Below are positions 1,445-40,304 of a DNA stretch of 58,775 nt, piece after piece; within the stretch, counting starts at the first letter, position 1; every line of letters begins with the position of its first letter. This DNA is from a bacterium (GTDB taxonomy: Bacteria > UBA9089 > JASEIO01). Under the pieces are notes generated by a model, which worked only from the letters and a program-made list of their open reading frames with translations, did not search any database and was not told the origin of the DNA. The stretch covers positions 1 to 58,775 of the forward strand of contig JASEIO010000004.1 of the NCBI GenBank assembly GCA_030017475.1, written 5' to 3'. Both the position numbers and the translations under genes were made by a program.

Positions 1445-4252
1445 ATGGTAGTTTCAAGGTTAGCAGGGTTAGGTTCAGGGGCTATATCTGGAATAGATTG
1501 GGAAGCCATAATCCAGCAATTGATCTATTTTGAGAGGCAGCCTGTAAGGAATTGGAGGGTTCGTCAAAGTAATTATGAATACGAGATAAACGCCTGGCGT
1601 GATGTGAACATGAGACTTAAAAACCTCCAATCAAGGGCAAATGATCTGATGAGTGCCTCTATCTGGAAGACAAAAAGGTCTACCTCCTCTAACACAGATA
1701 TTGTTGTTGCTACTTCGGGTACAGATGCAACAGAGGGTAAGTATGATGTAAGGGTAAGGCAATTGGCTACCCAATCTATATCAAAATCAACAAATGAGTT
1801 GAATACCAAAAAGGGGGCAAAGAGTACGCATGAGGTAAGGGCTGGGTCCCCAGTAGTAAATCTTGATTCAGACTTTTCCACCACAAACTTTGATAATGCA
1901 ATCGATGGGTCGATTAAGGTAAATGGCTATACATATAATATAGCGGATTATTCCAGTGTGCGGCAGCTTATGGATGACATAAATGATTATTCAAAGACTA
2001 GCTTATCAAAAGTAGCTGCTCCCGGAAAAAAGATAGATATAGAAAAACCCTGGGAAAGTGCTGGTTTTGAAAACGTACCTGTAGGTACGGTTACCATAAA
2101 TGATGTTGTATTCGATTTATCGGATTATTCCACTGTAAAGGAATTTATGGATGAGATAAATGACTTCTCAAAGGTCAGTTCTGCTCAAACAGGAAGTGGT
2201 AATACAAATGATCCTATCGATAGATTTTTTGGGACATCGGTTGATGGTACTATTACCATCAACAATACCACATTCACCATATCAAATTATAAGACAGTGG
2301 ATTCATTAATCACTGCGGTTAATAATAGCTATTTTGCAGATGCTACTTTAAGTTATGATAATGAAAAGATGTTATTTACTATCAGGAGGGATACACCTGG
2401 TACGGATTTAAATCTTTCTCAAACTGGAGAAAATCCATTCTTTACCGCGGCTAAAATCTCTGTTTTAGATGCAGATGTCACTATAACCTATGATTCTGCA
2501 ATAGATAAGTTTACTATTTCGAGGAATACGCCTGGGCAGGATCTGAATCTATCGCAATCAGGTACCCCAGGACAAGGGGAAAATCTATTCTTTAACGAGG
2601 TGAAGATCAATACCTTTCATTCAGGTGCAACTATAAGATATGACCCGACAACGGATAAGTTTTCTATCGAACACGATGATCCAGGAGCTACTTTGAAGTT
2701 ATGGCAGTCAGGTACAAACCCATTCTTTAAAGAGATCAATATATTTAAAGAGATCGATACAGAAAGGGAGTATACAACTAATGTAACAGGGGTTAATCCT
2801 TCACTTGCCCTTTATTTGGCTGGGTTTGACAATCCAGTGGGGGTTAAGGACGAAGGTGTATTCAAGATAAATAATGTGGAGATAACATGGGATGCTGATC
2901 AAGATACATTGAATGGGATTATAGGTAGAATCAATGCATCTGGGGCTCAAGTGACTGCATTCTTTGATGAATCAATGGATAAGATAAGCCTAACCTCTAA
3001 GGATTATGGGAGTAATCCTATAATGGTTTCGGATGTATCAGGTACCTTTGCCTTGACTACATTAAAGCTGCCTGAAAAAACCCCATCCGAAGACTTAGGA
3101 ACAGATGCTGCGTTTACTATCAATTCTACTAATTCGGACGATGAGATAACCAAGGGTTCTAATACCTTTACTATGAATGGGATTACATTCACCCTGAAGA
3201 ATGTATCAAAGGACCCCTGGACCAACTATTCTGATGCCAATCCTACCACCATCCAAGTGACACTTGATATATCCCAAGCAAAGGATGCCATTGAACAATT
3301 TGTTACCCAATATAATTCAACACAATCGTTTATAGAAAAGAAGATAGCCTATGATCCAGATACAAAAAAGGCAGAGGACCTGAATGCAGATATAACCGCA
3401 ATGTCTATAAATAGCCGAATAAGGAGGTTGACTACTGATAGATATAACAAACGTGCAACTATCACAAGCCAATTCCCAGTAACCCTATCAGGGGAGACAT
3501 CCATTGATGTTAGTAAGCCATTTGATCAGGCAGGTTTTGATCAAACCCCTACAGGTAAGGTTGTAATTAATAGGGTGGAATTTGATTTAGCGATTTATAC
3601 TGGTGGTTCAAAGACCGTACAGGATTTTATGAATGATGTAAAATCCAAGGCAAATGTCTCTATAACGTATGATTCAACATCGGATAGGTTTACCATAAGA
3701 AATGAGGATTATGGTGAAGATCTGGTTTTAATAGAAAAGGATTATACAAATGTAGGATTCTTTACAGAGGTAAATATAACCCCTGGTACTTATGAAACCT
3801 TAAAGAACGATATGAACAAATTGGCTGATATTGGGATAACAACAGGGAAGTATAAGTCGGATCAAAAGAATCAATTGGTGATTGATTCCGCTAAATTAGA
3901 AGCGGCATTAAGGGATAGACCAGAAGATGTAAGGAAGTTATTTGCTATAGATATGGATAAGCGGGGAGATGAGGATTATGGACTGGCTTATGAGTTATAT
4001 GAATATCTAAGCTCCTTAACAAAAAGTACTGGGGTTGTTGGAAATAAAATCAATGCATTACAGGGTTTGGTAACGGATATTGATAAGGATATGAAGGATT
4101 TTGAGGCAAGGTTAGTGATGAAGGAGGAATATCTACGGTCTCAATTTATTCTTATGGAAGAGGCAATAGGCAAGATGCAGGCCCTCTCTACATCAATTTC
4201 TGGTTATCTTACCTCTCTTCTTACCCCTAACATCAGCCTGAGATGGAAATAA
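1445..4252 (+). CDS. fliD: Flagellar hook-associated protein 2 (filament cap), oversized
   Basis: A 935-residue FliD, the cap that folds flagellin at the filament tip. The N-terminal domain (1-110) has the family opening (GLGSGAISGIDWEAIIQQL) and the C-terminal domain (787-930) ends in the usual long coiled coil. The centre is expanded by repeats. Copies of a hook-like unit (GTVTINDVVFDL, GTITINNTTFTI, GKVVINRVEFDL) occur near residues 150, 210, 265 and 695. Copies of a second unit (TYDSxxDKFTI...PGxDLNLSQSG...FF) occur near 300, 345, 395 and 740. Most FliD proteins have 450-700 residues. It is transcribed from the sigma28 promoter at 1293 through a leader and terminator. GGATGGGGG upstream supports the start, and a gene in FliS/FliT position follows after 8 bases. 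Confidence 0.95.
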   Translation: MVVSRLAGLGSGAISGIDWEAIIQQLIYFERQPVRNWRVRQSNYEYEINAWRDVNMRLKNLQSRANDLMSASIWKTKRSTSSNTDIVVATSGTDATEGKYDVRVRQLATQSISKSTNELNTKKGAKSTHEVRAGSPVVNLDSDFSTTNFDNAIDGSIKVNGYTYNIADYSSVRQLMDDINDYSKTSLSKVAAPGKKIDIEKPWESAGFENVPVGTVTINDVVFDLSDYSTVKEFMDEINDFSKVSSAQTGSGNTNDPIDRFFGTSVDGTITINNTTFTISNYKTVDSLITAVNNSYFADATLSYDNEKMLFTIRRDTPGTDLNLSQTGENPFFTAAKISVLDADVTITYDSAIDKFTISRNTPGQDLNLSQSGTPGQGENLFFNEVKINTFHSGATIRYDPTTDKFSIEHDDPGATLKLWQSGTNPFFKEINIFKEIDTEREYTTNVTGVNPSLALYLAGFDNPVGVKDEGVFKINNVEITWDADQDTLNGIIGRINASGAQVTAFFDESMDKISLTSKDYGSNPIMVSDVSGTFALTTLKLPEKTPSEDLGTDAAFTINSTNSDDEITKGSNTFTMNGITFTLKNVSKDPWTNYSDANPTTIQVTLDISQAKDAIEQFVTQYNSTQSFIEKKIAYDPDTKKAEDLNADITAMSINSRIRRLTTDRYNKRATITSQFPVTLSGETSIDVSKPFDQAGFDQTPTGKVVINRVEFDLAIYTGGSKTVQDFMNDVKSKANVSITYDSTSDRFTIRNEDYGEDLVLIEKDYTNVGFFTEVNITPGTYETLKNDMNKLADIGITTGKYKSDQKNQLVIDSAKLEAALRDRPEDVRKLFAIDMDKRGDEDYGLAYELYEYLSSLTKSTGVVGNKINALQGLVTDIDKDMKDFEARLVMKEEYLRSQFILMEEAIGKMQALSTSISGYLTSLLTPNISLRWK

Positions 4253-4260
4253 AGAGGTGA

Positions 4261-4674
4261 ATGATGAAAGAGACATTGCTTGATGATCTGAATAGTATGT
4301 CCTTTAGATTAGGGAAGATAAAAGATGTTATACAAGAGGTCTCTATTGATTTGCAGGTAGGGAATGAGGGAAGGGCAATGTTGCTATTACAAGGGATATG
4401 TAATAGTATTGATGATAGTATTGATGATATGGTCTATTTGATCGGTCAAACAAGGGACCTCTTTGGATTGGATTATTCGCATATCGCCCATGGAGATAGA
4501 AATGTTGATAAGATGATACAGGATTTAAAGGAGAATCTTCTTCAGATAATTGCTGCCTTAGAGCAAAAAGACCTTGTACTACTTTCTGACTTACTTGAAT
4601 ATAGGCTAAATCCACTACTTAGTTCCTTCCAGGATATAACAAAGGTCATTGTATCTAAGGTCTCAAACAATTAA
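4261..4674 (+). CDS. Small helical protein in FliS/FliT position
   Basis: A 137-residue, all-helical, acidic protein 8 bases after fliD and probably cotranscribed with it. It does not show the FliS N-terminal pattern (YxxxxxxTASPxxLxxMLY). The motif EQKDLVLLSDLLEYRLNPLL (residues 101-120) is of a kind seen in small proteins of flagellar clusters, but I cannot attach a family name. The position suggests a secretion chaperone for FliD or flagellin, or a protein linked to the glycosylation genes. Function is inferred from position only. The hairpin terminator at 4714 follows 40 bases later. Confidence 0.8.
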   Translation: MMKETLLDDLNSMSFRLGKIKDVIQEVSIDLQVGNEGRAMLLLQGICNSIDDSIDDMVYLIGQTRDLFGLDYSHIAHGDRNVDKMIQDLKENLLQIIAALEQKDLVLLSDLLEYRLNPLLSSFQDITKVIVSKVSNN

Positions 4675-5232: not shown

Positions 5233-8200
5233 ATGGATGAAAGACTTAAGGCCTTAGAGGATATGGAAGATGAACTGAGTAGATTGGAAAGGGAGCTGGA
5301 AGATAACGGAGATTCTTTGGATATTGATGAAAAGATAAAGGCATTTGAAGACTCATTAAGAGGAATAAAGACCCAGTATGTTCCTACAATTGATGGAAAG
5401 GCTGAAGTGGAAATATCAGAGGATCAACTAAAGGCATATCTAACTGTTACATCACCAAAAATCGGTGGGAAAGAAGCGAGTTTAAAAGAGGTTAAAGAAG
5501 AATTAGCAGGATTAGTTGAAGTGGATGAAGCCCGGATTCGGCATATTGTAGAGAATAAAGAGTTTGATAAGAAATTTTTGATTGCTGAAGGGATACCACC
5601 AGGTATAGGAGAAGATGCCTACCTTTCTTACAAACTTCAGGGAGAGAAGGTAGTGCCAGGACAAATCTTGGCAGTTAAAGTCCCTGCAACATGTGGCAAA
5701 CCTGGAATCTCTGTAACTGGGGATGAGATTCCTGGAAAAACAGGGGATGATTTCCAACTCATTCCAGGTAGGAATGTATCTTTATCAAGGGATGGGGTAA
5801 GGGCCTATGCTACAGATTTTGGAAGGGTTAACTGGGTAAAGGATAAAGTAAATGTTGAGCGATGTTATAAGGTTATGGGTTCGGCAAATAGGAAATTGGG
5901 TGATATTGAATTTGCGGGCAAGGTTTCGATTGAGGGAGATGTTTCAGATATCAATATTAATGCCAATTCTATCGAGGTTAAAAAAGGGGTTGTTAATGCC
6001 AAGCTAAAGGCCAAAGAAGATATTGTGGTTAAATCTTGTAAGGATTCTGAGCTAACCGCAGAAGGTAATGTCTTAATAAAAGATGACCTTGTAGGTGGAA
6101 AGGTCTTTGCAAACAGTATCCAAGCAAGAACCATTGGTGGAAGAGAAGGAGTGGAGACCCACATTTCAGTAAAAGATAAGATCTCTGCCTCTACAATCCA
6201 CAAAGGAGTAAGGATTGAAATATATAAAGAAAGGCTTTTGATAAAGGATAAAAAGGATAATATTACCTTCCATATTGAGGATGGAAAGATAAAAGGGAAG
6301 GAGTATGAAGAGATTACCCTCGAAGAAGGGATCCCTATAGAAAGAAGTAGGATTGATTTTACGAAATCCCCACCCTCTATAGTTATATCTTCAGATCTTT
6401 CCATAGAAAAGGCAAAGTTGCTTTTAGGGGTAAATGAGGAGGTAAAGATAAAAGAAGAGGGTGATAAGATAAGGGTTTTCCCTTCCTCAGCGAAGTCTTT
6501 TCCATGGGAAGAAGAGGTAACTGTAGATATAATAGTAGAAGAACCAAAGGATGGACATTTTGAATTCCAAAACACACAAGATGGGTTATATCTAATAGTT
6601 TCTCCTCCAATTGGCAAAGGTGAAAGGGTAAGTCTTGAAAAGGTCAGAGAGGAGATAAAAAGGAGAGATTTTGTTGGAGTGGATGATAAAAGGGTGGCGG
6701 AAGTGGTAAATAAATCTAATGGAGAGAAGATGAAGGTCGCAGAAAGGCAATATGATCATAGGATTGATTCTTCTATCTCTATTGAGTTATCCAAAGACTT
6801 GACTTCAGCAACAATGACTATCGCTCCCCCCAAAAAAGGTGGAAGATTACTGAATCTTACTCACCTAATGAAGGCATTAGATAAAGAGGGGATAGTAGCT
6901 GGGATTGATAAAGATGCACTAACCTCGATTTCTGAAAAGGTAGAGATTACCTCTCCTATAACTATAATGGTAGCCAAAGCCTCCCTTCCTACCAAAGGAG
7001 AAGATGCAAGATTCTCTTATAGATATGAAGGGAAGGCCATTGTTTCACAATTGTTAGCAGTAAAAGAGCCTCCTTCCTTGGGTAAACCTGGAGTGAATGT
7101 AAAAGGGGAGGAGATCCCTGCAGAATTAGGAGAGGATTTTGAAATCAAGGTAGATAAAAATGTGTTTCTATCTGAGGATGGATTGCGTGCCTATTCCTGT
7201 GTAGATGGCTGGGTATCTTGGGAGGAGAATAAGGTAAGTGTAGTAGGGGAGATTGGGAGGGAATTTGATCCAAAGAAGGATCCCCCATCTGTTGTAATTC
7301 CCTATTCCTCGATTGAGGAAGGAAAGAAAGAAGGTGCTCATCTTTTAGGTCTACCAATAGAAAAGGTGGATTATCGAGAGATGGAAGAAGGGAAAATAAG
7401 GATTGTTCCTTCGGATCTCCCTGGACCATGGGATGAAAAAGGGAGCTTTAAGTTTGTTAATACCAGGGAAGGTCTGTTTTTACAAGTCTTACCACCCAAA
7501 GGAAAGGGAGAAAGGGTAAAGGAAGAGGAGGTATTGAAAGAGATTGAAGATATGAAATTCGAGGAGATAGATTATAAAAAACTAAAGGATGTAGTGGATG
7601 AGTGTTCAGGTAAGGAGATATTGATTGGACCAAGACAGTTTATCCCAGGGATTGATAGTCAGGTAGTGGTAGAGATCTCAAGCGATAAAAAAAAGGCAAA
7701 CATTACAATTACCCCTCCAAAACCAGAGGGTTTAGAGGTTACCTTTCAAGAGGTAATCGAAATATTAAGGAAGAATAAGGTTTCAGTGGGAATCAAAGAG
7801 GATGTGATCAAGGAGGCAATAGATAAAAAACAATTTAATACATCTATATTAGTTGCTGAAGCCATTGAACCAATTCCTGGTAAGGATGGTTATATAGATT
7901 ATAGATTTAAGACAGATCAAGAGAAGATAAGATTATTAGAGGATGAACAAGGAAGGATTGACTTCAGGGAATTGAATAAATTGGAAAATGTAAAGGCAGG
8001 ACAACTCTTGGCAGTAAAGTTTCCCCCTAGCCTTGATGGAGGAAAAGAGGGGCTTTTAGTAACAGGAGAGGTAATTCCTGTCCCTTTAGGCAAGGAGGCA
8101 AGGCTTATAGGTGGAAAGAATACTATGTTATCCAATGATAAGCAGAAGCTTTATTCCAATATCTCTGGTCAACCTATATTGGTAGGAGATAGGGTATCAG

Positions 8201-9042
8201 TTGAGCCGGTTTATGAGATTAAGGGAGATGTTAATATGGGGACAGGGAATATACACTTTTTGGGAACAGTAATTATAGAGGGTTCTGTTTTTGATGGCTT
8301 TAAGGTAGAGGCCGAGGGAGATATAAAGATTAGGGATAGTGTAGGACGAGCAACTCTATTTGCTAAAGGGAATATAACAATTGGTGTAGGTGTTCAGGGT
8401 GGGAGAGTATTTTCAGGGGGTGATATTATTGCCAAATTTGTTGATGGATCTGAGTTGGGTGCTAAAGAGAATATAATTATTGGAGAGGAGGTTTTACACT
8501 CAGAGTTAAATGCGGGAAAATCAATTACCGTTTTTGGAAAGAGGGGTTCGATCATTGGAGGGCATATTACTGCTGGAGAAGAGGTTACGTCAAGGCGGAT
8601 TGGCTCCTCAGCCTTTACAAAAACCAAGATAAAGGTTGGAGCAGATCCAAAGACAAGACAGGAGATTCAAAGATTGGAGAAGGTACTTTCTAGTGAAATT
8701 AGGCATCTTGAAAGAATAAGATTGGATATAAAGACACTGGAGAGGATAGGTCAAGAAAGGGGACTAACTGATGAGGAAAAAAGGAGATTTGATAAATTGA
8801 TAAAGCTTAGAGACATATTATCCATGAAATTAAGATCCTATTCTGAAAGGCAAGAGATCTTAAACACCCAAATCCTATGTTCAACCGGAGGAAGGGTAAA
8901 TGTAGCAGAAATCTGTTTCCCTGGAGTATCAATCTTGATTAAATCTGCCAGCTTGATGATAAAGAATGATCCAATTGAGCAAGTAACCTTTGTGAATGAA
9001 GCCGAGGAGGTAAAGATAAAAGGTTATAATCCATCTAAATAA
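5233..9042 (+). CDS. FapA/DUF342 family polymer-forming protein, three-module
   Basis: A 1269-residue cytoplasmic protein, about twice the usual size of DUF342 proteins. The N-terminal DUF342 module occurs three times; each copy has the hallmark GQxLAVKxPPSxGKPGxxVxGEEIP (near residues 140, 600 and 920). The first module is followed by a short right-handed beta-helix (about 215-325). The third is followed by a second beta-helix (about 990-1130, with repeated small residues and G) and a charged coiled coil (1137-1200). Two linkers starting PPSIVIS and PPSVVIP resemble the small domain often fused to FapA. Members in Vibrio help set flagellar pole or surface programmes, and clostridial and other members occur beside flagellar genes. 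The exact role here is unknown. ATG 5233 has a weak GGGG site upstream. Confidence 0.88.
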   Translation: MDERLKALEDMEDELSRLERELEDNGDSLDIDEKIKAFEDSLRGIKTQYVPTIDGKAEVEISEDQLKAYLTVTSPKIGGKEASLKEVKEELAGLVEVDEARIRHIVENKEFDKKFLIAEGIPPGIGEDAYLSYKLQGEKVVPGQILAVKVPATCGKPGISVTGDEIPGKTGDDFQLIPGRNVSLSRDGVRAYATDFGRVNWVKDKVNVERCYKVMGSANRKLGDIEFAGKVSIEGDVSDININANSIEVKKGVVNAKLKAKEDIVVKSCKDSELTAEGNVLIKDDLVGGKVFANSIQARTIGGREGVETHISVKDKISASTIHKGVRIEIYKERLLIKDKKDNITFHIEDGKIKGKEYEEITLEEGIPIERSRIDFTKSPPSIVISSDLSIEKAKLLLGVNEEVKIKEEGDKIRVFPSSAKSFPWEEEVTVDIIVEEPKDGHFEFQNTQDGLYLIVSPPIGKGERVSLEKVREEIKRRDFVGVDDKRVAEVVNKSNGEKMKVAERQYDHRIDSSISIELSKDLTSATMTIAPPKKGGRLLNLTHLMKALDKEGIVAGIDKDALTSISEKVEITSPITIMVAKASLPTKGEDARFSYRYEGKAIVSQLLAVKEPPSLGKPGVNVKGEEIPAELGEDFEIKVDKNVFLSEDGLRAYSCVDGWVSWEENKVSVVGEIGREFDPKKDPPSVVIPYSSIEEGKKEGAHLLGLPIEKVDYREMEEGKIRIVPSDLPGPWDEKGSFKFVNTREGLFLQVLPPKGKGERVKEEEVLKEIEDMKFEEIDYKKLKDVVDECSGKEILIGPRQFIPGIDSQVVVEISSDKKKANITITPPKPEGLEVTFQEVIEILRKNKVSVGIKEDVIKEAIDKKQFNTSILVAEAIEPIPGKDGYIDYRFKTDQEKIRLLEDEQGRIDFRELNKLENVKAGQLLAVKFPPSLDGGKEGLLVTGEVIPVPLGKEARLIGGKNTMLSNDKQKLYSNISGQPILVGDRVSVEPVYEIKGDVNMGTGNIHFLGTVIIEGSVFDGFKVEAEGDIKIRDSVGRATLFAKGNITIGVGVQGGRVFSGGDIIAKFVDGSELGAKENIIIGEEVLHSELNAGKSITVFGKRGSIIGGHITAGEEVTSRRIGSSAFTKTKIKVGADPKTRQEIQRLEKVLSSEIRHLERIRLDIKTLERIGQERGLTDEEKRRFDKLIKLRDILSMKLRSYSERQEILNTQILCSTGGRVNVAEICFPGVSILIKSASLMIKNDPIEQVTFVNEAEEVKIKGYNPSK

Positions 9043-12609: not shown

Positions 12610-14367
12610 ATGGACTATTATAATTCAAATCTCCAGGTCTTAAAGACTAAACAGCCTGAACTAATCGAGCGGCTAAACAAGGTATCTATGGATAAAGATA
12701 TTGCGCTTCTTAAAGAAGCTGTCCTGGATCCAAGGATTGATTTAGATGAATGGAATGTTATTGCTGTTTTAGGTTTTGGATTTGGGAGGCTTGTCAAGGA
12801 ATTGATAAACCGGACTGATGAAGATATCCTTATCTTGGCAATCGAACCTAAGCTACGGATGTTTAAATCAGCCTTACATGACCACGACCTAAAAGAGGTA
12901 TTTAGTTCTAAAAAACTGAGTTTGGCTATTGCTGAAAAACCAACAGATATCCTTCTTCGAATACACGAGCGATATGAGGATTTTAAAGGGGTCTCTCGCC
13001 TATTACTATTGGAAAATGGAGGTTTTTTTAGGACCTCTTCTCAATATTTTGAAGCGGTTGTAATGTGTTTAAGGCACGCCTTTTCACTATCCTTTTATGC
13101 CGCTAATACCATAAGATTATTACTTCCTATGTGGATAAGGAATGTGTTGGACAATCTGGAGGCAATAGTCAGGAGTCCAGGGGTAGGTAGACTGTTTAAT
13201 AAATTTTTAGAAGTTCCTGCTATCATCGTATCTGCAGGTCCATCCCTGGATAAGAATGTAGGGGATCTGTGTTTGGCAAAGGATAAGGCATTGGTCATTT
13301 GTGTAGATACTGCGTTAAGGACCTTATTGCGGCGAGGAATAAGACCTGATCTGGTAGTCTCTTGTGATGGGTCCCGGAAGAACTATGATTATTACATTAG
13401 TGGAGTGGATATCCGTAACTTGACCCTAATAACTGACCCTATTGTTTATCCAAAAACTATCCTTGAGTTCAATGGACATGTATTTATCCGAGGGGTAAAA
13501 GAAAAGGACTCATTTGTAAACCTCTTCTTAGATCTTATTGGCTCTAAAGGCGATGTTCCAGCAGGAGGGGGGTCAGTTTCTCATTATGCCTTCAATTTAG
13601 CTAAGTATTTTGGGTGCGACCCTATTATCTTTGTGGGATTGGACCTATGTTTTGATGGAGATAAAACCTATACAAATGGTGTTCCAAGGGTAAGGATGGA
13701 TGAGGCAAGAAGGGATTCTAAAGAGGAGGAGCATGTTTTGATAGAAGACATATATGGAAAAGAGATAATAACACCTCGACACCTATACAACTTTTTACTC
13801 TGGTTTAGAACTGAGATAAGGAATGATCCATTGGGAATAACCTATATTGATGCCACAGAAGGTGGGGCAAAGATTCAAGGGACGCACATTATGCCCTTAC
13901 GTCAGGCAATTAAGGACTTCTGCAAGCGGAAGATTGATGTAAAAGGGATCTTAGAGGAGGCAGTTAAAAACTATGAACCTCCAGGTGTAGAGAATCTGAT
14001 CAATAGACTGGGCAGCCTCATAGATGAATATGAGTTGGTGATAAATCTCTCAAAGGAGGGAAGGAAAAAGGCTGAAGATATTCCATCTAAAGGATTGGAT
14101 GAGATTGATGGCCTATTTGATGAATTAGAAGAAATAAGTCAGCGAATAACTGAAAGGCAGTACTTTTTAGAGCTTAATCGTCCAAATGTAGAAGAGTTTC
14201 TGTATGAGATGAAGGATGGAATCCGTAAGATAAGGCATAGTAAAGATATCCTTATAGATTTAGCTGACGAATACAAGGTATTCTTTGATAAGATCTATGA
14301 TATCTCTAATGGTACATTGCCTCATATAGTGAATGCAAGAAATAGGTTAAACCTATCCAGGGGATGA
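12610..14367 (+). CDS. Maf-type flagellin glycosyltransferase 2 (DUF115)
   Basis: 585 residues with the full Maf layout: MDYYNSNLQVL opening, VIAVLGFGFGRLVKEL near residue 55, PAIIVSAGPSLDKN near residue 201 at the start of the DUF115 domain, then VDTALRTLLRRGIRPDLVVS, GGGSVSHYAFNLAKYFG, IFVGLDLCFDG and DATEGGAKIQG. The C-terminal ~150 residues are helical. It begins a run of four genes (maf2, maf3, maf4, neuA) with gaps of 1-30 bases, so one transcript from the sigma28 promoter is likely. It is closer to maf3 than to the others by eye. Confidence 0.92.
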   Translation: MDYYNSNLQVLKTKQPELIERLNKVSMDKDIALLKEAVLDPRIDLDEWNVIAVLGFGFGRLVKELINRTDEDILILAIEPKLRMFKSALHDHDLKEVFSSKKLSLAIAEKPTDILLRIHERYEDFKGVSRLLLLENGGFFRTSSQYFEAVVMCLRHAFSLSFYAANTIRLLLPMWIRNVLDNLEAIVRSPGVGRLFNKFLEVPAIIVSAGPSLDKNVGDLCLAKDKALVICVDTALRTLLRRGIRPDLVVSCDGSRKNYDYYISGVDIRNLTLITDPIVYPKTILEFNGHVFIRGVKEKDSFVNLFLDLIGSKGDVPAGGGSVSHYAFNLAKYFGCDPIIFVGLDLCFDGDKTYTNGVPRVRMDEARRDSKEEEHVLIEDIYGKEIITPRHLYNFLLWFRTEIRNDPLGITYIDATEGGAKIQGTHIMPLRQAIKDFCKRKIDVKGILEEAVKNYEPPGVENLINRLGSLIDEYELVINLSKEGRKKAEDIPSKGLDEIDGLFDELEEISQRITERQYFLELNRPNVEEFLYEMKDGIRKIRHSKDILIDLADEYKVFFDKIYDISNGTLPHIVNARNRLNLSRG

Positions 14368-14368
14368 A

Positions 14369-16123
14369 ATGGGCTATTATCAATCTAATTTACGGTTATT
14401 AAAAGAAAAGGAGCCTTTGTTGGTTAGGCGTTTAGATAAGGTATCTACATTAAAAGATATCCACATTTTTAAAGAAAAGGTGGTACCCAAGGATATCGAT
14501 TTAGATAAAACCGATGTTATTGTCGTTTTAGGATTTGGGTTAGGGGATCTTATTAAAGAGTTGATAAAAAGGACAGATGAGGATATCCTCATCTTGGTGA
14601 TTGAACCAAGTATGCCAATGTTTAAGTCAGCCCTCGCCTTAAGGGATCTATCCGAAATCCTTAAATCCAAGAAGGTGAGTTTAGCTATAGGAGAGACACC
14701 AATTTCTGCCACTTTAGGTAGATTGAATGAATATTCCGAAAATTTAGAAGGGATCTTTGAACTCTGGATTGTGGAAAATGGTACATTTTTTAATCCCGCA
14801 AAGAGTTATTATCTTGAAGCCAAAAGGTATCTAAAAGAGGCATTCTCCATAATGAGTCATCATGTGGTTACTGTAAGAAGACTGCATATTACATGGAAAA
14901 GGAATGTGTTAAGAAATTTGGAGGCAATGGTTATACATCCAGGTGTAGACAGACTCTTCAACAAATTCTTAAAAAAACCAGCCCTTATTGTATCTGCAGG
15001 TCCATCCTTAGATAAAAATATAAAAGACATATCTCTGGCAAAGGATAGGTCATTGGTCATTTGTGTGGATACTGCCTTAAGGAGTTTATTGGGGCAAGGG
15101 ATAAGACCTGATTTGGTAGTGTCCGTTGATGCATCCTGTGAAAATTATACCTATTATCTAAAAGGGATAGATGTAGATGGACTTATTCTAATAACAAATC
15201 CGATTGTCTATCCAGATATCATCACTAAATTCGGTGAGCGTGTCTTTATATCCGATATGGAAAGACCCATAGTGAAATTCCTTGGAGGTTTTATTGGATT
15301 TAAAGGTTACATTGATAAGGCAGCAGGTTCGGTCTCTCAATATGCATTTAATTTGGCCCGTCATTTTGGATGCGATCCTATTATACTTGTAGGGTTAGAT
15401 TTAGCCTATCCAGATGGGAGATTCTATGCTGAGGGGATTCCAAAGGAGAGGATAAAGAAGGCGCAAGAGATTGAATTTAAAGACAAGGTTTGGGTAGAGG
15501 ATATATATGGAGGAAGGGTTCCAACCTCTCATCTATTTTATACCTTCTTGCTTTGGTTTAATGCAAAGATAAAAGAAACCTGTAATTTGACAACTTATAT
15601 TGATGCTACTGAAGGTGGGGCAAAAATAGAAGGGACAAGGATTATGACTTTAAAGGAGGCTATTAAAGAATTCTGCAGATCTAAGATTTGGATTAAAAGA
15701 ATCCTATTTGATGCCCTGTCATATTATAAACCTCCATCCACAGAAGGTCTAATCCGTGGATTAGATGAGCTGATAGATGAATATAAGACAGTGAAGTTTC
15801 TTTCAGAAGAAGGGAAACGAAAGGTTGATAGTATCTTATCCAAAAAAACTTACGGACTTGAAGAGATTGACCAATCACTACAACGATTAGATGGGATAAC
15901 TCAGAGGATAATTGAGAAGGAAAACTTCTCAAGTTTCAATCAATTTAATGTACAAAGCTTACTATACGAGATGAAGAGAAATCTCAGAAGGATAAAAAAG
16001 GGTAAAGATATATTCTTTGATTTGGCTAAAGAATACAAAACCTTTTTTGAAGAGATTCAAAAACTCTGTGATGGTATTGCTTTAGACCTTGAAGATGCAA
16101 GGGATAGACTAAGTAGGTCGTAA
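14369..16123 (+). CDS. Maf-type flagellin glycosyltransferase 3 (DUF115)
   Basis: 584 residues, same domain order as maf2 and clearly its close paralogue: MGYYQSNLRLLKEKEP opening, VIVVLGFGLGDLIKELI, ALIVSAGPSLDKN near residue 204, AGSVSQYAFNLARHFG, ILVGLDLAYPDG, DATEGGAKIEG. The start is one base after the maf2 stop, so the two are coupled. Tandem paralogues of this kind could modify different Ser/Thr sites, use different nonulosonic acids, or serve phase variation as in Campylobacter. No homopolymeric slippage tract long enough for phase variation is visible in it. Confidence 0.92.
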   Translation: MGYYQSNLRLLKEKEPLLVRRLDKVSTLKDIHIFKEKVVPKDIDLDKTDVIVVLGFGLGDLIKELIKRTDEDILILVIEPSMPMFKSALALRDLSEILKSKKVSLAIGETPISATLGRLNEYSENLEGIFELWIVENGTFFNPAKSYYLEAKRYLKEAFSIMSHHVVTVRRLHITWKRNVLRNLEAMVIHPGVDRLFNKFLKKPALIVSAGPSLDKNIKDISLAKDRSLVICVDTALRSLLGQGIRPDLVVSVDASCENYTYYLKGIDVDGLILITNPIVYPDIITKFGERVFISDMERPIVKFLGGFIGFKGYIDKAAGSVSQYAFNLARHFGCDPIILVGLDLAYPDGRFYAEGIPKERIKKAQEIEFKDKVWVEDIYGGRVPTSHLFYTFLLWFNAKIKETCNLTTYIDATEGGAKIEGTRIMTLKEAIKEFCRSKIWIKRILFDALSYYKPPSTEGLIRGLDELIDEYKTVKFLSEEGKRKVDSILSKKTYGLEEIDQSLQRLDGITQRIIEKENFSSFNQFNVQSLLYEMKRNLRRIKKGKDIFFDLAKEYKTFFEEIQKLCDGIALDLEDARDRLSRS

Positions 16124-16150
16124 CTATTCATTAAATTGGGAGGAGGAATA

Positions 16151-17902
16151 GTGGACTACTACAGTACTAATCTACAATATCTAAGAGAGATTGAGCCTGA
16201 ATTGGCAGAAAGGTTGGAAGGTGTTTCTCCTGCACTACATGTTACACTTCCTAAGAATTCCCTTTTGGAAGACTCAGCTCTAAAGGATACTGGTATTGTG
16301 GCCATTTTAGGATTTGGATTAGGAGACCATGTGAAGGAGATAATACGTAGGACAGATAAAGAGACCTTTATTTTGGTGGTTGATCCTGATATAAGCACCT
16401 TTAAGACTGCTATGATCTATCGGGATTTAACCCCTATCTTTCAAGAGAGAAGGGTTGGATTAGCCATTTCTGAAGATCCAACTTTTGCAACCATAGTGAG
16501 ACTTGACAAGTTCAGTGCCTATACTAGATTGATAAAAAAGGATTTAAGGATAATGATAATTAGAAACAAACTTCTTGAAAGGCGTTTTCCAGAATATTAT
16601 CGAGCTGTAAGAGATGCATTACATCAGGCATCTATTTTCGCCTCTAAATCACTTTCTACATCAATAAAATTGGCATCTATTGTTCAAAGGAATGTCTTGA
16701 AAAATCTTGTGCATATGGTTAGGAGGCCAGGGGTAGATTCCTTATTTGGATGCTTTAGTGGTATTCCAGGAATAATTGTGGCATCCGGTCCATCCTTAGA
16801 TAAGAATGTAAGGGATTTGTATGGAGCTAAAGGGCATGCCCTAATAGCCTGTCTTGATACCTCCATTTCTACCCTTTTACATCATGGAATTAAACCAGAT
16901 TTGGTGGTTACCCTTGATCCATCTAAGAAGAATTATGATTATTATTTTAAGGATATAGATCTATCTGGCGTAAACTTAGTAGCAAGTATGACCACATATC
17001 CAAAGATAATCTCTCGCCATAAAGGTACAATATTTCTGGCTAATCCAGAGAATGGCTTAGTAAGATTTTTAGGAGATACCATATCCTTTAATGGTCTTGT
17101 CCCTAAAGGTGGTGGATCAGTAGCCCATTTTACCTTCAATTTGGTTAGATGCCTAGGATGCGATCCGGTTATATTTGTTGGGCAAGATCTGGCATTTGAT
17201 GGTAAAAAGACCTATACAGAGTTCGTTCCAGATCAAAAGAAAGAGGATATCCAGCGGGAGATTGCTGAAAAAGGGACTGTATGGGTTGAGGGTATAGATG
17301 GCAACCCTGTTTTGACCTCTCAGGTCCTTTCTGATTTCTTGCGCTGGTTTGAGATTGTAATCAGATTTACAAAACACAAGACCACATATATCGATTCGAC
17401 TGAAGGAGGGGCAAAGATAAAAGGGACACACATTATGTCATTAAAAGAGGCAATAAATAATTATTGTAGGAAAGGGGTCGAGATCGAAGGGATAATAAAA
17501 AAGGCTGAAGAAGGATATAAACCACCCACCTTAGATAGATTGGTTGATGCAATTGTCCAATTGAGAGATGCCTGGGGAGAGATAGTGAAGATTGCGAAAC
17601 AGGGAAAGGAAAGGATAGATGGACTTGAAAGACTCAAATCTTTACATAAACAGATAGAAGACCATAGGTTATTCAAAGAGACTACTACTTCTCTAAATCC
17701 TTTTGAATATAAACTAAAGAGGAGATTGGAAAAGATTGAAGGATATAAGAAAAGAGATAACTTAGAATTCCACAAGATGAAGGCATATAGGAGCTATTTT
17801 AATAAGGTCTTACGGTTTTCCCATTCTACAATTTGGCATCTTGAGGGGGTAGAAAAGAGACTAAGAAACGTAAATGAAATATATGGATATATGGGAGGAT
17901 AA
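16151..17902 (+). CDS. Maf-type flagellin glycosyltransferase 4 (DUF115)
   Basis: 583 residues. GTG 16151 is chosen as start because it aligns with the MDYYxSNL opening of the paralogues (VDYYSTNLQYL) and GGAGGAGGA (16139-16147) lies just upstream; the frame is also open 15 bases further up. The N-terminal VAILGFGLGDHVKEII and the DUF115 start GIIVASGPSLDKN (near 205, with Ala-Ser replacing Ser-Ala) are followed by GGGSVAHFTFNLVRCLG, IFVGQDLAFDG and DSTEGGAKIKG (Ser in place of Ala). It is followed after two bases by the CMP-sugar synthetase, which would make the donor for this enzyme class. Confidence 0.92.
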   Translation: MDYYSTNLQYLREIEPELAERLEGVSPALHVTLPKNSLLEDSALKDTGIVAILGFGLGDHVKEIIRRTDKETFILVVDPDISTFKTAMIYRDLTPIFQERRVGLAISEDPTFATIVRLDKFSAYTRLIKKDLRIMIIRNKLLERRFPEYYRAVRDALHQASIFASKSLSTSIKLASIVQRNVLKNLVHMVRRPGVDSLFGCFSGIPGIIVASGPSLDKNVRDLYGAKGHALIACLDTSISTLLHHGIKPDLVVTLDPSKKNYDYYFKDIDLSGVNLVASMTTYPKIISRHKGTIFLANPENGLVRFLGDTISFNGLVPKGGGSVAHFTFNLVRCLGCDPVIFVGQDLAFDGKKTYTEFVPDQKKEDIQREIAEKGTVWVEGIDGNPVLTSQVLSDFLRWFEIVIRFTKHKTTYIDSTEGGAKIKGTHIMSLKEAINNYCRKGVEIEGIIKKAEEGYKPPTLDRLVDAIVQLRDAWGEIVKIAKQGKERIDGLERLKSLHKQIEDHRLFKETTTSLNPFEYKLKRRLEKIEGYKKRDNLEFHKMKAYRSYFNKVLRFSHSTIWHLEGVEKRLRNVNEIYGYMGG

Positions 17903-24722: not shown

Positions 24723-26918
24723 ATGGAAAGTGGAAAACAAGATGAGATAGTGACTAAATTGTATAAGACTGGTGTAAGTGCCTTTGAGCTTAAAGAGTAC
24801 AAAGAGGCAAGACGGGCCTTTAAAATGATGACTGAGCTCTCACCTTACTATTCAAAAAGATTCAGTGAATCGATAGGTGATATCTTGTTTAAAATGGGCT
24901 ATTTCTGTGATGCTGCAAGGATGTATCTATGGGCGAAGACGGATAACAATTCTTTCCATATTTCACGCAAGTTGGCAGAGGCATATCTTGAAGCAGGACT
25001 ATATGAATTGGCATCACAAGAATATGAACAGATTGAATACAAAGATCTTCATAGATTAACGGAAATAAATGAAAGATGTAGATTACAATCAGAACTGAAC
25101 GAGTTCTTTGAAGCCAATTACCAAAAGAACTTGCTATTTCTTAAAGAACGCTATCCAGAGTTAGCAAACCTCCTTATCTCTTCGGATGATAATGGGGTAA
25201 TAAGGATATTCAGATTAAAAAGTGGCACATTTTGTTTCTTTGATACTACGACCCGAAGGTTAATCTATGAAGATAATGCCTCGGCAAACGAGAATAAAGA
25301 TGTTGTAGACAAGGCTATCATATTAATAGGGTTAAATACAGGGTACTATCTCCATACATTCCTTAAACTGCCTATACTAGCCCCGATACCTCTATCTTTG
25401 GGGTACAAGATCCCTCTTTATGTAGTTGAGGATTCACTTGATGTCTTTCGTGCAAATCTTAAGATCCATGATTTCCAAAAGATTTCTGAGGAATTGAAAA
25501 GGGTCGTCTTTTTTGTTGGTAAGGAATGGAAGGATGATTTTAGAAGGTTCTTTTCAGATCTACAAAGACCCATACCAAATAGGTATATCCTAAAAAACAT
25601 AAGCCCTTTAGCCTCTGAGGTGGAAGGCTTAGTGAAATCTATTGCAAATGAAAGAGAACGCAAATATCATGTGTTTATCCAAAATCGGGACGAATATTAC
25701 AATAATCTAAAGGAAGAGGATTTGAAACGGATATTCTCCAATAAAGGTGGAAGACCATTAAGGATATTGTTTCTAACCTCTCGATTTACAACCTTTCTTC
25801 AGTATTGTACACGTGATATAAGTAGTGGCTTTCAAGAATTGGGTCACAAGACCTGCATATCAATCGAACAGGATGATATCAGCCGCATAACCCACGATTT
25901 CTTGCAGAAATCCTTGGCAGAATTCAAACCGGATATGATCTTCAATATTGACCATTTGCGAACAGAGAGGCAAGAGGACCTTTTTCCAAAAGGTATCCCA
26001 TTTGTAACCTGGATTCAGGATGATATGCCTAACCTATTTAACAAAGAGTATGTCAAACGATTATCCGATAGAGATTTTATATACCTCTTATTCTCAAGCT
26101 TTGCACCTAAGTGCTATGAAAGCGGATATAAAGAAATTAAGATGCTTCCGTCAGCTTGTAACCCAAAGATATACAACTTGGATGTGGAAACTAAAAAGGA
26201 ATATGAGTGTGACCTGGCCTTTGTAAGTCATTGCTCTCCCCCACAGCCCAATCCTGAGTATCCTGGACTAATTGAACGTATCACCGAGATAAGGATGTCA
26301 AGTAGTGAAAGGATTACCTATGGAGATCTTGATTATTGGCTTGATTGTATAAAAAGGGCAGAAAGAGAACTCTCTATGGATATTTCAGAAGATAAGATTC
26401 CTGAGATACTCAGATATATAGATTTTTGTGTAAATAGATACGTAAATAGAATAAAACCAATCCTTTGGGCAGAGGAGTTGGGGATTAAGATAAAGCTATA
26501 TGGAAAGGGATGGGAAGAGATACCAAGGCTTAGGAGGTATGCAATGGGTCCAGTTACTCCTGGGGAAGTTCTCAAATCAGTTTACCATTCAGCAAAAATA
26601 CACCTTCATATCTCCGAGGTAGAGGGTGCTTTCCACAGTAGGGTATTGGAGTGTATTGCATCAGGTGGATTCATATTGATGTTTCGTCCACTTAAACTTG
26701 AGGAGATAAGCAATTATTTGACGATAGAAAGGGATATAATCTTGTATGATTCTAAAAAGGATTTTCAAGAAAAGGTTAGATTTTACCTAAATAATGAAAC
26801 TGAAAGGAAGAAGATATCAGAAAGTGGTAGAGAGAAGATTCTAAAGGAACATACCTATAAAAGACGTGCAGAATCTATAATTCAAGACATTAGAGATAGA
26901 TTAGATACTAATTACTGA
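24723..26918 (+). CDS. TPR / Maf-N-like / CgeB-like glycosyltransferase fusion
   Basis: 731 residues in three parts. Residues 1-115 are TPR-like helices (AFELKEYKEARRAFKMM). Residues ~130-330 match the N-terminal region of the Maf proteins in this window: YQKNLLFLKERYPELANLL corresponds to the MDYYxSNLRLLKxxxPxL opening, and AIILIGLNTGYYLHTF to VIAVLGFGLGxxxKEL. The catalytic DUF115 motif AGPSLDKN is absent. Residues ~345-725 form a CgeB-like GT-B glycosyltransferase (LRILFLTSRFTTFLQY, WIQDDMPNLF, HISEVEGAFHSRVLECIASGGF, KEHTYKRRAESII). GAGGAGGGA precedes the ATG. This looks like a flagellin-modifying enzyme in which the Maf recognition region drives a different transferase. The domain reading is by eye. 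Confidence 0.82.
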   Translation: MESGKQDEIVTKLYKTGVSAFELKEYKEARRAFKMMTELSPYYSKRFSESIGDILFKMGYFCDAARMYLWAKTDNNSFHISRKLAEAYLEAGLYELASQEYEQIEYKDLHRLTEINERCRLQSELNEFFEANYQKNLLFLKERYPELANLLISSDDNGVIRIFRLKSGTFCFFDTTTRRLIYEDNASANENKDVVDKAIILIGLNTGYYLHTFLKLPILAPIPLSLGYKIPLYVVEDSLDVFRANLKIHDFQKISEELKRVVFFVGKEWKDDFRRFFSDLQRPIPNRYILKNISPLASEVEGLVKSIANERERKYHVFIQNRDEYYNNLKEEDLKRIFSNKGGRPLRILFLTSRFTTFLQYCTRDISSGFQELGHKTCISIEQDDISRITHDFLQKSLAEFKPDMIFNIDHLRTERQEDLFPKGIPFVTWIQDDMPNLFNKEYVKRLSDRDFIYLLFSSFAPKCYESGYKEIKMLPSACNPKIYNLDVETKKEYECDLAFVSHCSPPQPNPEYPGLIERITEIRMSSSERITYGDLDYWLDCIKRAERELSMDISEDKIPEILRYIDFCVNRYVNRIKPILWAEELGIKIKLYGKGWEEIPRLRRYAMGPVTPGEVLKSVYHSAKIHLHISEVEGAFHSRVLECIASGGFILMFRPLKLEEISNYLTIERDIILYDSKKDFQEKVRFYLNNETERKKISESGREKILKEHTYKRRAESIIQDIRDRLDTNY

Positions 26919-27018: not shown

Positions 27019-27384
27019 ATGACCAAAACTCAAAGTTCAAAACAGTATGATTTGGAAGATCGCACCATTGAATTTGCAAGAAGGGTTAGAGCCCTTGTAA
27101 AGAAATTACCTAAGACAATAGGAAACATTGAAGATGGAAAACAGGTTGTCAAGGCGTCTGGATCAGTAGGAGCAAACTATATTGAGGCCAATGAGTCATT
27201 AAGCAAGAAAGACTTTGTTATGAGAATCAAAATCTCCCGTAAAGAAGCGAGAGAGAGCCGATATTGGTTAAGATTAATAGACATAGGTAGCAATAGTGAG
27301 AATGAAAAGGAAAGGGAAGATTTGGTACAAGAAGCAACAGAACTTATGAAGATTTTTGGCTCCATAGTTGAAAAATCAAAATAA
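27019..27384 (+). CDS. Four-helix-bundle protein (S23 / 23S rRNA intervening-sequence family)
   Basis: A 121-residue protein of the family first found inside 23S rRNA intervening sequences (TIGR02436). Hallmarks are LEDRTIEFARRVRALVKKLP, VKASGSVGANYIEAN and the second half KISRKEARESRYWLRLI. Members form pentameric helical bundles; their function is unknown. The first ~10 codons are made of the simple repeat sequence that surrounds the gene, a common feature of this family in draft genomes. It breaks an otherwise contiguous glycan operon and is flanked by inverted repeats, so it was probably acquired as a small mobile unit. Confidence 0.88.
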   Translation: MTKTQSSKQYDLEDRTIEFARRVRALVKKLPKTIGNIEDGKQVVKASGSVGANYIEANESLSKKDFVMRIKISRKEARESRYWLRLIDIGSNSENEKEREDLVQEATELMKIFGSIVEKSK

Positions 27385-37381: not shown

Positions 37382-39157
37382 ATGGATTATTATCGATCTA
37401 ATCTACGATTGTTAAAAAAGAGGGATCCTGCTTTAGTAAAAAGAATAGAAGAGGTTTCGCCTATTCCATCTATCATTCAACCAGAGATAAATATAGATAG
37501 TAGTATTTGTGACTATGAAATTATTGCAGTCTTGGGATTTGGATTGGGACGTCATATCAAGGAATTGATAGATAAGACTGAAGATACAACCTTTATTTTA
37601 GTGGTGGATCCTGATTTAAAAGCCTTTAAATACGCTTTGTCTTCAGTAGATTTAACCTCTATCCTAATCCAGGATAGGGTGGTTTTAAGCATAGGTGAGG
37701 AGCCACATTTTGCTACTATTATAAAACTTGAGAGATACTATCAGAATTTGAAAGGGGATTGGAAGATAAAGATAATTACCCATCAATGGTTTTTAAGACG
37801 TGCTCCAGCATACTATAAAGATGTAGAAAAAAGTCTAAAAGTTGCTGCCAACCTTGCCCTTGGGTGTTTGGTAACCTCATTCAAGATCTCTAAATATGCC
37901 CAAGGTAATCTGTTAAAAAATCTTCCATTTATGGTTAAATGTCCAGGATTGGATAGAGCGTTTGGGAGATTTAGAGATATCCCAGCCCTTATTATTGCGC
38001 CAGGTCCTTCTTTAAATAAAAACATAGGAGAGCTTAAAAATGCAAAAGGACGTGCCTTGATTATATCCGTAGATACTGCTTTACGACCACTTTTAAGATA
38101 TGGAATAAGACCAGACTTAGTGGTCGCTGCTGATTGGAGTAAAAAGAATTATGATTATTTTTTTAAGGGAATAGATACACCTGATGTAACATTGGTTGCT
38201 GATTTGTCGGTATTTCCAAAGGTACTAACTACATTTTCTGGACCTATATTTGTATGTAGTTGTGGGAATAGGACTGTTAATTGGTTAGGGAGGTTTGTCG
38301 ATTTCCGCTCATTTACTGCTCGAGGTGGAGGGTCTGTAACCCATGTTGCCTTTTCAGTAACTGAATTATTAGAAAATAATCCAGTTATATTCGTTGGGCT
38401 TGATTTGTCATTCCCAGATAAAAAAACCTATGGAGCGAAAGGGATTTGTTTAAAAAAGAGGCTTGAGGAGAGAAAAAGAATGAAGAATCAAGAGATACTT
38501 TGGGTGGATGGTGTTTGCGGAGAGAAGGTGATGACAACTCGATTATTCTATAACTTCTTGGAATGGTTTGAGGTGGCTATAAAACTTTCGCCAAATAAGA
38601 GATATATTGATGCCACAGAGGGAGGGGCAAGGATAAATGGGACAGAGATTTTGACCTTAAAGCAGGCCATTAGCACCTATTGCCAGAAACCAATCGAGAT
38701 AGATAATATCTTAAGAGATGTAAGGGAATCATATAAGGTTCCAGAATTAAATGGATTAACCAATGAGTTGGAAGATGGAATAGAGGGATGGAACAGGATT
38801 AAGGAATTTGGAAGAAAAGGGGTTAGGGTTTCAAAAGAGTTGATATCTTCCTTAAAGAGGGATATGGTGAAGAACCAATTATTTCAAGAGCTAAATGGAC
38901 TTCAGAAACAGATAATTAATGAAGAAAGATATTTTATGCTCAATCTGGATGAGGTGGAAGATACATTTATGAAAATGGAGATGGGGTTAAAGGGAATAGA
39001 ACAGGATGAAGCTAATACCCAATTGAAGGTTGCTGAAATCCATAAAAATTTCTTTAAAGGGATCCTTAAGATCAGTAATAGGATGATTCCGAGGTTAAAA
39101 AAGACAAGAAAGGAATTATCGAAGATACAAGGAGGGTTCACTAATGAAACAGTTTAG
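37382..39157 (+). CDS. Maf-type flagellin glycosyltransferase 5 (DUF115)
   Basis: 591 residues, 14 bases after neuB. The Maf opening MDYYRSNLRLLKKRDPAL, VLGFGLGRHIKELI, and the DUF115 start LIIAPGPSLNKN near residue 200 are present; the usual SAGPSLDKN is changed to APGPSLNKN. ISVDTALRPLLRYGIRPDLV, RGGGSVTHVAFSV, FVGLDLSFPD and DATEGGARINGTEI follow. It resembles maf4 more than maf2/maf3 by eye. It overlaps the next gene, a CgeB-like transferase, by 14 bases, which links the two in expression. Confidence 0.92.
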   Translation: MDYYRSNLRLLKKRDPALVKRIEEVSPIPSIIQPEINIDSSICDYEIIAVLGFGLGRHIKELIDKTEDTTFILVVDPDLKAFKYALSSVDLTSILIQDRVVLSIGEEPHFATIIKLERYYQNLKGDWKIKIITHQWFLRRAPAYYKDVEKSLKVAANLALGCLVTSFKISKYAQGNLLKNLPFMVKCPGLDRAFGRFRDIPALIIAPGPSLNKNIGELKNAKGRALIISVDTALRPLLRYGIRPDLVVAADWSKKNYDYFFKGIDTPDVTLVADLSVFPKVLTTFSGPIFVCSCGNRTVNWLGRFVDFRSFTARGGGSVTHVAFSVTELLENNPVIFVGLDLSFPDKKTYGAKGICLKKRLEERKRMKNQEILWVDGVCGEKVMTTRLFYNFLEWFEVAIKLSPNKRYIDATEGGARINGTEILTLKQAISTYCQKPIEIDNILRDVRESYKVPELNGLTNELEDGIEGWNRIKEFGRKGVRVSKELISSLKRDMVKNQLFQELNGLQKQIINEERYFMLNLDEVEDTFMKMEMGLKGIEQDEANTQLKVAEIHKNFFKGILKISNRMIPRLKKTRKELSKIQGGFTNETV

Positions 39158-40304
39158 AATATTTATCTATACCGCTAGTAATAAGAGTATGCTTAAATAC
39201 CTTATGGAGGATGTGGTATCGGCATTACAGGAATTGAATCAGATTGTATATGTCCTCGATATACACAATATCGATTCACCAAAGACGTTAGTCTCCATGG
39301 GGGAGGATAAGATTTCGGAATTCAAACCAGATTTCGTGTTCAATATGAATGGTTGTGGTCTTCCATCGCCTCTTTTGGATAAGCTAAAGATTCCATTTTG
39401 TACATGGTTTACGGCTGATCCAACCTTTCTTTTAAAACCTAAGGATGTCTCATCTTACCATCACATTTTTGTATTTGATCGCTCCCTTATACCAGAATTA
39501 AAAAGAAGAGGGTTTGAGCAGGTCTATTACCTCCCCTTAGCTACCAATCCAAAGATATTCAAACCATTATATCTATCAGAAGGAGATCTATATAGATATG
39601 GATGCGATCTAAGTTTTGCAGGTACCTGTAGTCGATCCATTGGCTTTAGGCAAAGAAGGCAGGAGATCTATCAATTTCTTGGGGAAGATTTGGTAAACTC
39701 CTTATTAGAACTTAAGATTGATTTTCCAACAAGACCAATAATAGATATATTTAAACAATTAATTAAAGATAATAAGGATTTTCTTAAGGATAAGGATAAA
39801 GGGCTTCTATTTATATATCTCAAATTTATAGAATTTGAGGCCATGAATCTATTTAGAAAGTTAGTGATTATGTCAACCTCTAATTTTGAGATACATCTAT
39901 ATGGAGATGATGGATGGAAGGATATTAAACATCCAAAGGCCTTTTTTCATGATAGAATAGATAACAGGACCGAATTGCCAAGGTTATACAATGCTACCAA
40001 GATAAACCTAAGTCTTCCTGTATCTACCAAAGAGGCAGTGACTATGAGTACCTTTGATATACCAGCATGTGGTGCCTTTATGTTATCAAGTTTTAGAGCT
40101 GATTTAACAAGATTGTTTAAAGAAGGAGAGGAAGTGGTTTGTTTTAGAAATAGGAATGAATTGAAAGATAAGATAGATTATTATCTCAGACACGAAAGGG
40201 AGAGGAAGGAGATAGCTAACCGAGCAAGAGAGAGGATATTAAATGAGCACACCTTTGTCCATCGAATGAAAAGGATACTTGATGTAATGGAAGATTTTAT
40301 TTAA
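39144..40304 (+). CDS. CgeB-like glycosyltransferase A
   Basis: 386 residues of the CgeB/Glyco_trans_1_2 type. The N-terminal domain reads FRIFIYTASNKSMLKYLMEDV, with ALQELNQIVYVLD and FCTWFTADPTF. The C-terminal domain carries TKINLSLPVSTKEAVTMSTFDIPACGAFMLSS, where the acidic/polar residues of the donor site are expected, and ends NEHTFVHRMKRIL. These enzymes are frequent in flagellin glycosylation islands and probably extend the first sugar. A close paralogue lies at 43854, and a relic of a third copy follows immediately downstream. Confidence 0.85.
   Translation: MKQFRIFIYTASNKSMLKYLMEDVVSALQELNQIVYVLDIHNIDSPKTLVSMGEDKISEFKPDFVFNMNGCGLPSPLLDKLKIPFCTWFTADPTFLLKPKDVSSYHHIFVFDRSLIPELKRRGFEQVYYLPLATNPKIFKPLYLSEGDLYRYGCDLSFAGTCSRSIGFRQRRQEIYQFLGEDLVNSLLELKIDFPTRPIIDIFKQLIKDNKDFLKDKDKGLLFIYLKFIEFEAMNLFRKLVIMSTSNFEIHLYGDDGWKDIKHPKAFFHDRIDNRTELPRLYNATKINLSLPVSTKEAVTMSTFDIPACGAFMLSSFRADLTRLFKEGEEVVCFRNRNELKDKIDYYLRHERERKEIANRARERILNEHTFVHRMKRILDVMEDFI

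Follow-up and report, generated by a model that had tools for sequence, protein, structure and literature searches.

The 58,775-nucleotide stretch of bacterial DNA analyzed here (contig JASEIO010000004.1, referred to below as the window) encodes a 731-residue protein, P0001, that joins three weak TPRs, a degenerate Maf N-terminal domain (MafN), and a CgeB-type GT-B glycosyltransferase domain. We propose, with a probability of roughly 0.58, that it is a cytoplasmic, flagellin-modifying, retaining GT-B glycosyltransferase whose TPR and MafN parts recruit the acceptor. What the sequences give directly is the domain make-up of the protein, the portability of MafN, its operon links, and its co-occurrence with flagellin.

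Domain make-up of the window protein and its genomic context

Pfam searches placed the CgeB-like family PF13524 at residues 584 to 720 of the protein (E = 5.6e-26, 91.7 bits versus a gathering score of 25) and found no PF01973 (DUF115/MptE-like) catalytic domain at E values up to 10. This bears out the first-pass annotation, which held that a CgeB-like GT-B domain had replaced the DUF115 domain; because PF01973 is absent, we do not class the protein as a Maf. The family-invariant CgeB residues G594, W597, R640, F650, H710, T711, and R715 are all kept, and Foldseek matched the whole-protein model to the retaining GT4 GT-B enzymes MshA and BshA (E of about 1e-7). Pfam detected no DUF3880 (PF12996), an N-terminal GT-B segment that is common, not universal, in CgeB/PF13524 glycosyltransferases. 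A FliS/flagellin-like C-terminal helical domain was likewise absent by both Pfam and model, the protein terminating with the CgeB domain at residue 731. By sequence, we assign the protein to the CgeB/PF13524 GT-B glycosyltransferases.

The TPRs that had been proposed in front of MafN correspond to three weak Pfam matches across residues 13 to 103 (TPR_2, TPR_6, and TPR_16; each E of about 0.006 and under its cut-off), and the same part gave a weak match to the LcrH/SycD TPR chaperone of NCBIfam (E = 2e-4, far under the cut-off). The AlphaFold model of the protein (mean pLDDT = 75) contains helix pairs across residues 5 to 103 (helices 5-14, 20-39, 46-58, 61-72, 78-90, and 94-103, with low to moderate pLDDT), a long helix at 109 to 143, a Rossmann-like alternation from about 160 to 327, and a GT-B fold from 347.

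The Pfam match to PF20157 (Maf_flag10_N) spans residues 197 to 271 (E = 2.4e-4) at 21.1 bits, slightly under the gathering score of 23.5 bits. An HMM of other MafN domains, from which the window protein was left out, matched it at E = 1.4e-7 among the window ORFs, where it ranked sixth behind five true Mafs with no further matches. Residues 107 to 346, aligned as a single sequence by hhalign against 21 other MafN domains, gave a probability of 97.4% (E = 1.6e-11, aligned residues 130 to 270). The similarity to the Maf N-terminal region is therefore significant, as the first-pass annotation had claimed, although the domain covers about residues 130 to 330 and not the whole of the 115 to 340 range originally given. 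The MafN profile A2 matched the Magnetospirillum Maf crystal structure in the PDB (5mu5) at E = 3.5e-8; the two profiles that match 5mu5, A2 and A1, contain the window protein as 1 of 11 and 1 of 9 rows, respectively. A phmmer search of the PDB with the single MafN segment of the window protein returned no real match. AlphaFold models of this part were moderate (mean pLDDT = 72 to 75), and the excised model gave no significant Foldseek match; its weak spermidine-synthase and methyltransferase matches were discounted as evidence.

Both strings quoted in support of the original assignment fall on MafN signatures (consensus NLxxL...PxLA and GLGLGYH). Among 11 near-invariant positions, defined over 21 diverse MafN domains, the window protein retains E190, G203, G207, Y208, and E236 and is altered at six (Y182 for H, E183 for S, S187 for P, N191 for A, N205 for G, and Y209 for H). 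These sequence comparisons indicate a genuine but divergent, degenerate MafN.

Together with sugar-nucleotide genes and several GT4/CgeB glycosyltransferases, the features in Table 1 make the window a flagellar glycosylation island. A 23S rRNA intervening-sequence protein (PF05635) is encoded within the island at 27019-27384.

Table 1. Features of the window, with the parts of the TPR-MafN-CgeB protein
Feature	Position	Strand	Remarks
Flagellin C-terminal end, probably cut by contig start	68..523	+	Flagellin_C, E 3.4e-23
FliD (filament cap)	1445..4252	+	FliD_N/FliD_C
Small helical protein, unnamed family, C-terminal DLLEYEL motif	4261..4674	+	Recurrent beside MafN genes
FapA (flagellar assembly protein A)	5233..9042	+	
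Four classic Mafs (MafN + PF01973)	10629-12404, 12610-14367, 14369-16123, 16136-17902	+	Pfam
TPR-MafN-CgeB fusion protein P0001	24723..26918	+	ATG start, 731 aa; ORF real, coordinates confirmed
N-terminal helical hairpins, about 3 weak TPRs	24723..25043	+	Residues 1-107
Degenerate Maf N-terminal (Rossmann-like) domain, MafN	25110..25712	+	Residues about 130-330
CgeB-type GT-B glycosyltransferase domain	25755..26915	+	Residues 345-731
Fifth classic Maf	37382..39157	+	Pfam
Free-standing CgeB-type glycosyltransferases (DUF3880 + PF13524)	39144-40304, 43854-45095	+	Pfam
PF13524 glycosyltransferase	41495-42400	+	Pfam

Distribution and partners of MafN

Scanning 84,980 species genomes with a MafN profile, together with genome searches, yielded 26 further MafN-CgeB proteins from at least seven phyla (Nitrospirota, Thermodesulfobacteriota, Myxococcota, Latescibacterota, and Hydrogenedentota among other lineages). 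The MafN profile was required: when genome contigs were scanned with the whole 731-residue protein as query, with confirmation by tblastn, no relative was found. Across all 27 proteins, Pfam detected PF13524 in 27, PF20157 in 25, and DUF3880 in 26, and 24 of the 26 others match PF20157 at E values up to 0.01. The window protein is the only one with a TPR match (1/27) and the only one missing DUF3880; no second TPR-MafN-CgeB protein was found among the 26 others, the sample of the window's own phylum being 19 genomes. The architecture had been put forward as new. By these sequence searches, MafN-CgeB is judged widespread and not unique to the window protein, and only the TPR prefix is private to it among the 27. 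MafN-CgeB adjoins FliD-FliS in three loci (L099, L122, and L144), and is preceded by GT9 in L077:4204-7809 and by a methyltransferase in L142:2489-5254.

Within the window's phylum, PF20157 was detected in 9 of 19 genomes, where MafN is joined to PF01973, to CgeB (G003, G004, and G008), to GT9 (three genomes), to a methyltransferase (G004), or to a methyltransferase plus GT2 (G006). Individual examples include the GT9 (heptosyltransferase-like) fusions L147:5849-8293, L046:1270-3153, and L050:1-1977 (minus strand), the methyltransferase protein L127:1808-2872, and the methyltransferase-GT2 protein L148:1687-4398. Two tandem MafN copies precede a single PF01973 in L149:1828-4233 (minus strand). 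A tree of 123 MafN domains implies at least 14 partner changes, a figure slightly inflated because a few labels are ORFs cut at contig ends, and partner labels cluster far more than shuffled labels do. On the CgeB tree, the starred branches cannot be explained unless the MafN fusion was gained or lost at least five times. Both trees put the window protein on a very long branch (the longest for MafN, the second longest for CgeB; 2.9 to 3.3 changes per column), so that its fusion may have arisen either within the main MafN-CgeB clade or independently of it.

Bacteriovoracales and related bacteria also carry MafN as a stand-alone gene of about 220 to 240 residues; its 23 loci follow the order FliD, FliS, (FliT), MafN, GT9, GT9 (e.g., L083, L086, L087, L093, L096, and 18 more; one such operon was checked by Pfam). 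FliD and FliS lie upstream in 23/23 loci, with FliT detected in 22/23, and GT9 lies downstream in 21/23, the other two being loci that end just downstream. No classic Maf was seen within the retrieved flanks of these operons. Stand-alone MafN beside GT9 corresponds to the MafN-GT9 fusions in split form. The existence of stand-alone genes means that MafN cannot be explained as a structural requirement of one particular catalytic domain. Taken together, these sequence-level results strongly support MafN as a portable module (with GT115, CgeB, GT9, methyltransferase, or methyltransferase-GT2 as partner, or alone in FliD-FliS operons), as the first-pass annotation had supposed, and the portability extends further than that annotation envisaged.

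The small helical DLLEYEL protein of the window (4261-4674), for which no Pfam or NCBIfam family was found, has relatives in 17/23 stand-alone MafN loci, 10/17 MafN-CgeB loci, and 14/39 classic Maf loci, the last count omitting one borderline match that falls within a Maf ORF (L130, E = 1.3e-3). Reversed-sequence controls gave no match. Other members lie at L071:5083-5454, L088:5355-5963, L116:9713-10192, and L093:10154-10792, among others. The family recurs next to MafN genes of every architecture and is a candidate partner or chaperone.

Of the genomes tested, 17 with MafN-CgeB and 4 with stand-alone MafN, all contain flagellin (21/21), compared with 15/39 control genomes of the same domain (Fisher's exact test, p = 7e-7, an optimistic value in that the tested genomes are not independent, L099 and L122, for example, being close). 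All six flagellated genomes of the phylum have MafN (6/6). The source genome of the window protein also encodes flagellin, with a complete copy on another contig (G000:C67). The link between MafN and flagellin is not strict, however, because three genomes of this phylum that are 96 to 100% complete (G013, G017, and G018; loci L033, L034, and L032, respectively) have a classic Maf yet no detectable flagellin. In view of these three genomes, we abandoned the idea that every MafN protein acts on flagellin.

Putative function of MafN and of the window protein

How cytoplasmic O-glycosyltransferases choose flagellin is poorly understood. For the window protein, we infer flagellin as the acceptor, recruitment by TPR and MafN, and retaining chemistry: the CgeB-type C-terminal half would transfer a sugar, either onto Ser/Thr or onto a first sugar attached by Maf, and the noncatalytic TPR and MafN parts would guide the enzyme to flagellin ahead of the step in which FliS delivers flagellin for export. 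MafN in general is a portable module that flagellated bacteria attach to different transferases or make as an independent subunit alongside FliD-FliS-FliT. With MafN decayed and TPRs added in the window protein, recruitment may have passed in part to the TPRs, on the model of FlmG. Aeromonas Maf1 binds flagellin directly, without sugar, and passes it to the FliS-like chaperone FlaJ (PMC4065374), and FlmG binds flagellin through its TPR half, the other half being GT-B (PMC7591256); both findings fit recruitment by the N-terminal part. From the sequence data, MafN is a plausible flagellin-docking module. The wider proposal falls in our estimation a little short of even odds: MafN would be a general adaptor of bacterial flagellar glycosylation, either fused to at least four unrelated transferase classes or encoded separately in the FliD-FliS-FliT operon, and would present flagellin to the transferase that it carries, often with a DLLEYEL partner. 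The Maf N-domain has been described as a degenerate Rossmann fold whose function was stated to be unclear, and the Maf C-terminal helical domain has been likened to FliS and flagellin (PMC11339370). The published guess for the Maf-flagellin contact is this C-terminal domain, which is missing from the window protein, and this counts against docking by MafN.

We tentatively entertain, on the unlikely side of even, that MafN is instead a regulatory or donor-handling Rossmann domain that binds a SAM-, nucleotide-, or sugar-nucleotide-like ligand. Stand-alone, CgeB-, methyltransferase-, and GT115-linked MafN all keep the 11 near-invariant residues (HS...P..EA, GxGxGYH, and, on the following strand, an E), an invariance expected of a ligand site rather than of a variable protein interface. 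A GxGxG motif with an acidic residue is the pattern of class I methyltransferases and is the basis for reading these residues as a nucleotide- or SAM-type site. At the sequence level, MafN profiles also matched COMT and spermidine synthase weakly, and according to the account in PMC11339370, the authors of the Maf crystal structure described a degenerate Rossmann fold that weakly resembles methyltransferases. MafN would then have had an ancestrally methyltransferase/spermidine-synthase-like fold, of which the window protein, its site decayed, would keep the fold alone. However, no MafN ligand is known, six of these residues are lost in the window protein while its glycosyltransferase residues are kept, and the diversity of partners and the position in FliD-FliS-FliT operons fit the acceptor side better than the donor side. 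Docking and ligand-site roles of MafN may both be true.

It is also possible, at similar odds, that the enzyme extends a glycan begun by the Mafs of the island, as other glycosyltransferases of heteroglycan islands do, and makes no contact with flagellin itself, TPR and MafN serving only to keep it within a multienzyme complex. The five Mafs and several GT4/CgeB glycosyltransferases of the island are consistent with this reading, as is the finding that in Aeromonas lacking Fgi-1, flagellin bears only a single Maf-type pseudaminic acid derivative (PMC7874193). Against it, the free-standing CgeB glycosyltransferases of the island do without MafN, and no classic Maf is seen in the retrieved flanks of stand-alone MafN operons. 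That the MafN match is a chance Rossmann-fold similarity and the protein an ordinary TPR-GT4 enzyme would account for the subthreshold PF20157 score and for a poor AlphaFold MafN model with no significant Foldseek match, but this very improbable reading is largely refuted by the leave-one-out HMM and hhalign matches, the recurrence of this domain order in 26 further proteins, and the location in a Maf island. The long branches of the window protein do leave room for a possible drift toward another role.

Recruitment of a flagellin-modifying enzyme by TPR and MafN is the reading that we favor. Across many phyla, MafN occurs in fusions with CgeB, GT9, or methyltransferases and on its own next to FliD-FliS-FliT; its role thereby becomes directly testable with a protein of about 220 residues, and MafN is a possible tag for retargeting glycosyltransferases.

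Among known systems, the MafN-CgeB proteins of other phyla share with the window protein the MafN-CgeB order, flagellated genomes, and flagellar or GT9-rich neighborhoods; in contrast to it, they lack the TPR prefix and have canonical MafN residues and a recognizable DUF3880. The catalytic half of the window protein belongs to the CgeB/Glyco_trans_1_2 (PF13524) glycosyltransferases, whereas free-standing CgeB has neither TPR nor MafN; in open-licence papers, we found no link between CgeB-type enzymes and flagellin glycosylation. The TibC-type autotransporter heptosyltransferases (PMC4358343) show that a heptosyltransferase can glycosylate protein directly, a precedent that bears on MafN-GT9 and on stand-alone MafN genes next to GT9, although the acceptor is another one and MafN is not described there. 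Maf itself (Magnetospirillum, PDB 5mu5; MafN, PF01973, and a C-terminal helical domain) shares the N-terminal domain and the flagellar-island context, whereas the window protein has a GT-B domain and added TPRs in place of PF01973 and MafC, and its MafN motif residues are degraded. Caulobacter FlmG (PMC7591256), in which MafN is not described, works as a modular flagellin glycosyltransferase in which a TPR N-terminal part is paired with a GT-B C-terminal part, a design to which that of the window protein, with its weakly matched TPRs, may be similar.
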